From Haloarcula marismortui ATCC 43049 (GTDB lineage: Archaea; Halobacteriota; Halobacteria; Halobacteriales; Haloarculaceae), in assembly GCF_000011085.1 (NCBI RefSeq), contig NC_006395.1, positions 124,001 to 188,000 on the forward strand: a stretch of DNA of 64,000 nt, given 5' to 3'. The position numbers and the translations under genes were made by a program. This document shows, in pieces, positions 23,111 to 24,584 of the stretch. Each line of letters opens with the position of its first letter. Positions within the stretch are counted from its first letter, which is position 1. The notes below the pieces were generated by a model. It was not told the DNA's origin and did no database searches. It worked only from the letters and a program-made list of their open reading frames with translations.

Positions 23111-23562
23111 ATGGCGGGGACTGATCCGGACAAAACGTTGTCGACGCGTTCGAGGGCGAGTACGATGGCCAGTCCGGGACCCAGGTCGACTACGAGGCAC
23201 TACTGGAGGTCGATCCCGACGTGCTCGTGTTCCACTTGGGCGTCAATTACCGCGACTGGAACGGCGAAGATGCGCTCCGAAAGACAGTCGAAGGGATGCG
23301 AGACAGTTCGCTGGGGCAGGAACTCACCGCCGTTCAGGAGGAGAGACTCTACGTCGGTGGGTCAGCCTATCAGGGTCCGATCATCAATCTCTTCCAGACA
23401 GAGATGCTCGGAAAGCAACTCTATCCTGACGAATTCGGTGAGTGGCCGGGCGAGATCACCGCTGGCGAGTTTCCAGAAATTCCCGAAGGCAAACATCTGT
23501 TCGACCGCGAGGAAGTCGCGGATATCCTCACTAGATCGAGCGAAGCTACCGACCCACAGTAA
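23111..23562 (+). pseudogene. Iron(III)/siderophore ABC transporter substrate-binding protein, truncated and frameshifted
   Basis: The ATG at 23111 opens frame 2 (MAGTDPDKTL), but recognisable protein is in frame 1 from 23125: SGQNVVDAFEGEYDGQSGTQ then VDYEALLEVDPDVLVFHLGVN, LYVGGSAYQGPIINLFQTEMLGKQLYPDEFGEWP and a normal stop at 23562. This is the C-terminal third of an FecB/BtuF-like periplasmic-binding protein, with the DPDVLVFH and GPIINLFQTEMLGKQLYPDEFG segments typical of haloarchaeal iron-transport binding proteins. The signal peptide and N-terminal lobe (roughly 200 residues) are missing, and a TGA stop (23122) interrupts frame 1. An internal deletion that joined the start region to the C-terminal part explains this best. 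Confidence 0.75.
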
Positions 23563-23628
23563 CAGCAGTTCCCTCAGAAGCATGGTTGGAAAAGGTAGGT
23601 GTTGCGCTCCTGCAGGAAAGCGGATGAC

Positions 23629-23755
23629 GGGTGGCGATGGGCACCGTGTGTGCCACCCACTGCAGTCAGAGGCACGGATGGGTTCTGGACCCGAGACATG
23701 GGGTGGGGCGAGTGGGCGCAAAGTAGGAAAGGGCCCAAAGCGGGGACCAGAACCC
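23629..23755 (-). ncRNA. Putative C-rich hairpin RNA, copy A
   Basis: On the minus strand the element starts GGGTTCTGGTCCC and pairs with GGGTCCAGAACCC about 50 bases later (23742-23755 with 23680-23692), 12 of 13 pairs with a central T-T mismatch. The intervening loop is rich in C (CGCCCCACCCCAT). A 3' hairpin GGGTGGC/GCCACCC (23629-23658) encloses CACACGGTGCCCATC. An AT-rich AAAAAATAT lies about 30 bases upstream of the GGGTTC start on the minus strand. No ORF with normal codon use covers it. Copies B and C share the layout. Confidence 0.45.
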
Positions 23756-23858
23756 GTATAATCGTAATTCATCGTTCGACATATTTTTTGTGGTAAATAC
23801 TAGCATAGTGGTAATTTCAGTGCAGTCATCACCGGAACGCACGGCTCCACCAATCACG

Positions 23859-23998
23859 TAAAAGGATGGGACGTTGCTGTGGGGGTGGGAGAGATGGGGT
23901 GCAACGTCCCATCGGAAGTCGTCGGTTTCGACGACGGATTCCAGCCCAAAGCAATCGTGTGAGTGAATCCAGTGCGATTGGGCAGGGCACAGAACCCA
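23859..23998 (-). ncRNA. Putative C-rich hairpin RNA, copy B, with terminator-like end
   Basis: The minus-strand element starts near GTGGGTTCTG (23998). Its TATA-like box CTTTATATAC (24017-24026) lies about 25 bases upstream, the correct archaeal spacing. The 5' part GGGTTC can pair with GGAATCC; an inner stem AATCG...CGATT follows. A central 6-base hairpin is GTCGTC/GACGAC with loop GAAACC. The 3' hairpin GATGGGACGTTGC/GCAACGTCCCATC is perfect over 13 pairs (23865-23877 with 23901-23913), with a C-rich loop (ACCCCATCTCTCCCACCCCC), and is followed by CTTTTAC, as in an intrinsic terminator. This copy has the clearest start and end. Confidence 0.5.
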
Positions 23999-24135
23999 CC
24001 TAGCTCGGATACGAGTGTATATAAAGTATTTATGATATCCCCACGCCGTCTGTTGATTTGGTTGCAAGCCGCTCATTTTTACTGGCGTTGTTTCCATCTG
24101 ATAACGTGAGAAGTACACCCCATGCAATAGCATAG

Positions 24136-24270
24136 GAATGGTGGGCAGCCGGGGGGAGTGGTGTGCACCGCACCATTCGGAGTCGGTATCCGCGTCGACG
24201 GGTTCTGGACCCGGACCGCTTGATGAACGTGATCGGATTCAGTGGGGGAGGTGGCGCGGGGACCAGAACC
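24136..24270 (-). ncRNA. Putative C-rich hairpin RNA, copy C
   Basis: On the minus strand GGTTCTGGTCCCC (24258-24270) pairs with GGGTCCAGAACC (24201-24212) with the same T-T mismatch as copy A. The loop contains CCACCTCCCCCACTG. The 3' hairpin is GAATGGTG/CACCATTC (24136-24143 with 24171-24178) with a C-run loop ACCACTCCCCCCGG. A TATA-like GTTATTT lies about 30 bases upstream of the start. The three copies lie in the same order and spacing (about 230-270 bases) and share no convincing protein-coding frame. Confidence 0.45.
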
Positions 24271-24584
24271 GCATTAAGTAACATACAGTTGGTACGAAAT
24301 AACGATTGTGACGTTTTATGCCATTTTATTAGCTATGCGGTCACTGAGCGTCCGCAATTGCGGCATCGAGGTGGACGATGACCGGACAGTTGGATCTGTA
24401 CTAGTTCCTGTAGTTCCGAGTCCCTGAATGTGTAACGGAAGGGCAATTCAATCCAGCAGCACGTGGCAGAGAAGTGGGAAATCGTAGCCAGCTCGGTGGG
24501 GGTAAGTAACTCAGTAGAGGTGAATCCACCAACGCACAGGAAGCCCGATGACCGGTTCGAAACAGTGCGGTTCTAAATAGTGAG
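24271..24584. other. Intergenic between the hairpin-RNA cluster and the sensor kinase
   Basis: About 310 bases. It contains the presumed promoter of RNA copy C (GTTATTT on the minus strand near 24300) and a GCGGTTCTAAATAG near 24569-24583 that resembles the GGTTCT start of the RNA copies. No gene recognised. Confidence 0.4.

Follow-up and report, generated by a model that had tools for sequence, protein, structure and literature searches.

Three related elements, A, B and C, lie in tandem on the minus strand at positions 23617-24275 of the window (the whole 64,000-nucleotide stretch of DNA analyzed here), on contig C7 (410,554 bp) of Haloarcula marismortui ATCC 43049. By a 100% match over copy C, the contig matches plasmid pHMA411, also known as pNG700. 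The array is flanked by a two-component regulator gene on one side and by the decayed gene of a substrate-binding protein on the other; the latter is reduced to a 113-aa open frame in H. marismortui and is intact in H. hispanica (L063, 6915-8159). Plasmid pHH400 of H. hispanica carries an orthologous array in the same gene order. The features of the array are summarized in Table 1.

Table 1. Coordinates and sequence features of the three-copy array and the adjacent gene remnant (positions in the window).
Feature	Position	Strand	Description and evidence
Copy C promoter	24296..24310	-	CACAA (BRE-like) and TATA box TTATTT (24296-24302), 25-31 nt before GGTTCTG; profile of 78 copies
Copy C, subtype I RNA, first member of the array	24131..24275	-	R2 cmsearch E 7e-32 (in training set), fold, pair counts
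Copy C stem 1	within 24131..24275	-	CGGTTCTGG/CCAGAACCC plus CCCG/CGGG
Copy C stems 2 and 3	within 24131..24275	-	Stem 2 weak; stem 3 GAATGGTG/CACCATTC encloses CACTCCCCCCGGC
Copy B TATA box	24018..24026	-	TTTATATA, 21-29 nt upstream of GGGTTCTG
Copy B	23859..24001	-	Fold z -5.4; R2 E 2e-24 (in training set)
Copy B stems 1 and 2	within 23859..24001	-	Stem 1 GGGTTCTG; stem 2 GTCGTCG/CGACGAC
Copy B stem 3	within 23859..24001	-	13 bp, C-rich loop ACCCCATCTCTCCCACCCCCACA, then CCTTTTAC
Copy A TATA-like box	23780..23789	-	AAAAAATATG, with CACA upstream
Copy A, subtype III RNA, last member of the array	23617..23759	-	R2 E=1.5e-9, in no model's training set; consensus structure of 20 subtype III copies
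Copy A stem 1	within 23617..23759	-	GGGTTCTGG/CCAGAACCC
Copy A 3' hairpin	within 23617..23759	-	GGGTGGC/GCCACCC, with GTGCCCAT in its loop
Copy A invariant motif	23665..23675	-	GTGCCTCTGAC; complement GTCAGAGGCAC = nt 3-13 of rosR mRNA
Substrate-binding protein gene remnant	23111..23562

The initial annotation had described three tandem hairpin elements with C-run loops, each behind a TATA-like box. All three are present where it had placed them, with C-runs in the loops and TATA-like boxes about 21-34 nt upstream of each start; the matches of a covariance model to further copies in other Haloarcula genomes (E down to 1e-35) put this far beyond chance. Stem 1 opens with GGGTTCTG in copies A and B and with CGGTTCTG in copy C; the T-T mismatch reported for A and C corresponds to a small internal loop, common to both, in which U residues face each other, and the 13-pair hairpin of copy B is indeed followed by CCTTTTAC. 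Since copy B is the only one with an exceptional fold as a single sequence, the z scores of copies A (-1.4) and C (-1.1) being unremarkable, single-sequence folding could not decide whether the elements are RNAs, and the decision came from comparison between copies.

Fold, promoters and distribution of the RNA family

Covariance model R1, built from seven copies of the H. marismortui genome, recovered 17 copies in that genome at E<1e-4, located on contigs C4, C5, C7 and C9; the 3-Mb contig C8 yielded no good match. BLAST, too, placed relatives on four contigs. The search for further copies that the annotation had proposed yielded about 110 in other Haloarcula genomes (E down to 1e-35) with co-varying stems, and 15 of 32 genomes of the genus hold 1 to 19 copies each when isolated matches at E>0.001 are set aside. 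Altogether, about 120 distinct copies occur across the 15 Haloarcula species with convincing matches, often as tandem arrays that retain the same flanking genes across species. In the 94 other genera sampled no convincing copy was found, and an order-wide search with model R2 was positive at E<=0.001 in 20 of 392 genomes, with strong matches only in Haloarcula. The five positive genomes outside the genus were discarded as weak (E>=4e-5) and coding-like on inspection, as were weak model matches in other genera (L042-L046, L134-L138), which by eye are coding-like repeats lacking the family motifs, and a pattern match in Halegenticoccus (L062), which falls within coding sequence and is unmatched by the model. 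Phage records gave no match to the family. Within the genomes searched, the family is restricted to Haloarcula and is multicopy, residing on secondary chromosomes and plasmids. It is previously uncatalogued: Rfam 15 gives no gathering-score match in the window, none up to E 10 in 23400-24500 and none at motif-bearing loci, and the open-access journal literature searched contains no description of it.

Across 125 distinct aligned copies, standard pairs fill 93.2% of stem cells, compared with 36-47% when the partners are slid, and two-sided changes are seen at 25 of the 28 pairs, with none of 500 shuffles reaching any of these measures; the alignment is model-fitted and hence favours structure, but the effect size and the many two-sided changes exceed that explanation. 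This comparison makes copies A, B and C members of a genuine family of structured RNAs, as the earlier observation that arms pair while loops differ had suggested. Because G-U and U-G are tolerated over A-C and C-A combinations (379 against 86 in 121 curated rows, 4.4 times), the minus strand is identified as the RNA strand.

Upstream of 78 non-redundant copies aligned on the first G of stem 1, the profile shows A-rich, CACAA-like positions from -38 to -33, TTTT at -29 to -26 (T in 76-96%) and weaker conservation near -62. As this promoter lies at a fixed distance from stem 1, the RNA probably starts at stem 1. A genome-wide scan of H. marismortui with the extended promoter pattern gave three exact-or-near matches, all at RNA copies. 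Each copy has its own conserved promoter, from which it would be transcribed; covariation, the G-U strand bias and the fixed spacing together strongly support separately promoted, minus-strand RNAs, in line with the initial annotation.

Three subtypes can be distinguished. In subtype I (copy C and its relatives), stem 2 is GUCGUCGUGGAUGACGAC and the stem 3 loop contains CUCCCCCC, while a B/II-like subtype has a varied stem 2 and loop (copy B; elsewhere GUCGCCGAUUUCGGCGAU with UUUGCCCAU). Subtype III, represented by copy A, is distinct, with a 3' half unlike that of B and C: stem 2 is absent, and an invariant GUGCCUCUGAC is followed by a hairpin with UGCCCA in its loop. Arrays mostly run from subtype I through B/II to subtype III as the last member. 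Units are spaced 130-300 nt apart, each with its own promoter, and the downstream gene is not constant; a reading as type III toxin-antitoxin (ToxIN) RNA was rejected on these features, and a CreTA reading found no support.

Sixteen arrays (L069, L070, L073, L075, L076, L085, L095, L101-L103, L107, L113-L115, L121 and L126) neighbor a conserved plasmid module, present three times in the H. marismortui genome. It consists of genes f11 and f1 (70 and 99 aa, neither with a Pfam match), which diverge from the arrays, and a PadR-like gene, f12 (105 aa), convergent to them. The module was considered as a partner of the RNAs and rejected, being absent from the A-B-C array and having f1 homologues in genomes that lack subtype I/II RNAs.

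Complementarity to the start of rosR

The subtype III motif is invariant in 20 aligned copies except for one base in one copy. In the consensus fold of these copies it is unpaired, in fixed orientation between two covarying stems, about 85 nt inside the transcribed unit; its predicted unpaired probability is 0.53 against 0.43 for the whole RNA. When single sequences are folded, by contrast, most of the copy A motif is predicted to pair (0.23 unpaired), which counts against a role as seed. The copy A form, GTGCCTCTGAC, occurs 12 times in the H. marismortui genome, compared with 1+1 for the reversed control; these occurrences comprise array copies, further RNA-like elements (two on the main chromosome) and the start of one PadR-like gene (ATG TCA GAG GCA C), whose product is RosR (PDB hsRosR, E 2e-44). 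Subtype III GUGCCUCUGAC is exactly antisense to the 5' end of the rosR mRNA (AUGUCAGAGGCAC), the match in copy A being an 11-base stretch. The duplex between copy A and rosR reaches -34.2 kcal/mol, which 4 of 200 shuffles match, and the pairing of copies B and C with rosR is no better than that of shuffles.

Of 99 genomes from the order, 94 encode RosR, a major stress regulator with a global role. Among 30 orthologues gathered by protein similarity and not by the motif, 26 begin with exact TGTCAGAGGCAC, so that the 11-12 nt complementarity is conserved on both sides, in unselected orthologues and in subtype III. Codon usage at the start is strongly biased relative to the same genes: codon 2 is TCA in 30 of 30 (3% of other Ser codons), codon 4 is GCA for all 27 Ala (20% elsewhere) and codon 5 is CAA for 27 of 28 Gln (11% elsewhere). 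In 26 of the 30, a TTAAATA box begins 29 or 30 nt ahead of the ATG; as this spacing equals that of the RNA genes, the rosR mRNA is probably leaderless. The first 15 nt of rosR are nucleotide-conserved across haloarchaea, with the rare TCA, GCA and CAA fixed (L325-L354; e.g. G000:C8:2937652-2938008).

Beyond Haloarcula, 199 of the 243 genomes searched in the order contain the 12-mer GTGCCTCTGACA, at counts far above the reversed control (40 against 0 in G111, 20 against 1 in G070), part of which are rosR and its paralogues. It is missing almost throughout sampled genera with a diverged or absent rosR (e.g. g9, g20, f9). A genus in which rosR starts with ATGTCAGAGTCAC carries, besides rosR, only one hairpin-enclosed matching seed, GTGACTCTGACA (G182), and few others, so that a compensatory change of the seed is at most suggested there. 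Of 49 non-rosR sites outside arrays, 24% have a z score below -2 against mononucleotide shuffles, the median being -1.0, and their promoters do not clearly favor one orientation; given this modest fold signal and the absence of an orientation bias, we do not claim all motif sites as RNAs.

Several motif-bearing loci deserve separate mention. In genus g34 (G111, G070 and G084; L285-L315), each genome carries 16-40 copies of GTGCCTCTGACA, many of them within non-coding DNA, where they sit in a loop or are flanked by hairpins, and these may represent a second multicopy RNA expansion. At L206, L207 and L208 (G161, G125 and G117), a conserved RNA-like element comprises CACCTTAC...GTAAGG, GGGGGAAGATTGA and the stem GTTCACCGG/CCGGTGGAC, followed by GTGCCTCTGACA and a hairpin with loop CTGCCCA, with no Rfam match. 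Divergent pairs of motif-bearing RNA-like elements lie beside f1/f11 (L179-L183; G000:C4:31974-32470, G000:C5:126299-126459), and the same pair is seen again close to f1 homologues where the genome has no subtype I/II RNAs (L149, L150, L154). The pattern GTGCCTCTGACN{12,42}TGCCCA occurs in 34 viral contigs (L221-L254), although it is a loose pattern sought over millions of contigs and many of these may be chance.

Readings of the array and its conserved motif

The reading we prefer, at a probability of about 0.5, is that the array comprises three separately promoted, co-regulated sRNA genes, the last of which (copy A type) represses rosR via its start codon. RNAs of about 130-145 nt each would act in trans, those of the copy A type pairing over the initial 11-13 nt of leaderless rosR mRNA, which would cover the start codon and block ribosome entry, so that conditions turning on the array promoter would lower RosR. 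The seed is missing from subtypes I and II (copies C and B), which may offer their C-rich loops to other targets or to a protein. A wider version, which we hold a little more tentatively, is that haloarchaea share a class of sRNAs in which an 11-12 nt seed, GUGCCUCUGAC(A), recurs and silences RosR by masking both the 5' end and the start codon of its leaderless mRNA, and that in Haloarcula the seed RNA closes arrays whose C-rich or GCCCA loops serve further targets. To our knowledge, archaeal trans-acting sRNAs are poorly understood, and sRNA action on leaderless mRNAs, which have no ribosome-binding site to cover, is largely open. If the reading is true, an RNA layer lies above a master regulator, with nucleotide-level conservation in both partners, and a post-transcriptional layer is added to the RosR network. 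Since the sRNA family is well delimited, covarying and present in many copies in cultured haloarchaea, a concrete test is possible in model species.

The main rival to RNA pairing takes GTGCCTCTGACA as an operator half-site in DNA for RosR or a relative, in which case the sRNA genes would be RosR-controlled and the antisense match at rosR would reflect autoregulation. In favor of this rival, RosR is a DNA-binding protein of the PadR-like type for which binding close to start sites, also at its own gene, has been reported (PMC4287449), and the 12-mer tracks RosR-bearing genomes. In 24 of the 30 orthologues, TGACAT lies 16-17 nt before the rosR ATG, generating an inverted repeat, TGACAT-N10-ATGTCA, that overlaps the start codon. 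It is mainly on account of this operator-like repeat that we do not take RNA pairing as proven: the repeat would explain part of the codon constraint, which by reaching codon 5 (CAA) also exceeds the motif, and both points appear to count against pairing. Motif elements outside Haloarcula, moreover, do not all look RNA-like. Nevertheless, the published RosR consensus, TCGnCGACGAGnTCGnCGAC (PMC4287449), differs from GTGCCTCTGACA, GAGGCAC is conserved past the palindrome, and the subtype III motif sits unpaired and in fixed orientation deep inside the transcribed unit, without a second half-site. On balance, we consider the operator explanation unlikely.

Less probable still is that the RNAs are multicopy C-rich trans-acting sRNAs like LhrC or Rsa RNAs, whose C-run loops would pair with G-rich Shine-Dalgarno or 5' regions of many mRNAs, an idea raised by the initial annotation, with rosR incidental. 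Separate promoters and a tandem multicopy layout, as in LhrC, fit this proposal, as does the CACCTCC in the copy C loop. The C-rich loops emphasized by the initial annotation proved conserved in part: C-runs of the stem 3 loop (the 3' hairpin) persist across subtypes I and II (columns 207, 208 and 227, 81-90% C), whereas subtype III loops keep UGCCCA instead. Against the proposal also stand the variable loop 1 and the leaderless appearance of haloarchaeal mRNAs, that of rosR among them, and the strongest evidence for a target leads instead to rosR. A protein-binding scaffold or sponge of CsrB-like logic, in which stems and loops would engage a Haloarcula RNA-binding protein, would suit many copies of hairpins repeating one architecture with stems more conserved than most loops, yet no co-distributed protein family was identified, f1 beside 16 arrays occurring also in genomes without subtype I/II copies, and we regard this as very unlikely. 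That the copies are MITE-like mobile DNA elements or DNA hairpins without RNA function, as their dispersed, multicopy presence largely on secondary replicons might suggest, is barely credible given the one-strand tolerance of G-U over A-C (4.4 times), the promoter at fixed spacing and the flanking genes kept across species; by inspection, the conserved block ends show no terminal inverted repeats.

Comparison with known systems

Like the array members, sRNA132 and s479 of Haloferax volcanii are intergenic haloarchaeal sRNA genes with their own promoter, but by description they are set apart, not forming multicopy structured arrays. The proposed target is an orthologue of hsRosR (VNG0258H; PMC4287449, PMC3443676); the published control of that regulon is transcriptional, via TCGnCGACGAGnTCGnCGAC, and no sRNA control of rosR was found in the literature searched. 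In Bartonella (PMC5387305), genus-specific RNAs in tandem with DNA-binding protein genes are likewise genus-restricted and multicopy, some near HTH genes, to which f12 corresponds here at 9 arrays; in Haloarcula, however, that HTH gene is convergent, and many arrays, the A-B-C array among them, lack it. The closest likeness in layout is to LhrC1-5 of Listeria monocytogenes, whose five copies each have their own LisR-dependent promoter and mask Shine-Dalgarno sequences through UCCC motifs (PMC4132741). Both systems comprise several homologous sRNA genes, each with its own similar promoter and C-rich loop motifs; for both, trans action at the translation start of target mRNAs is proposed, the targets in Haloarcula being putative. 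The two share no sequence relation, however, the Haloarcula family being archaeal with a three-stem fold, and subtype III carries, instead of a UCCC motif, an 11-nt putative seed against one probably leaderless mRNA.
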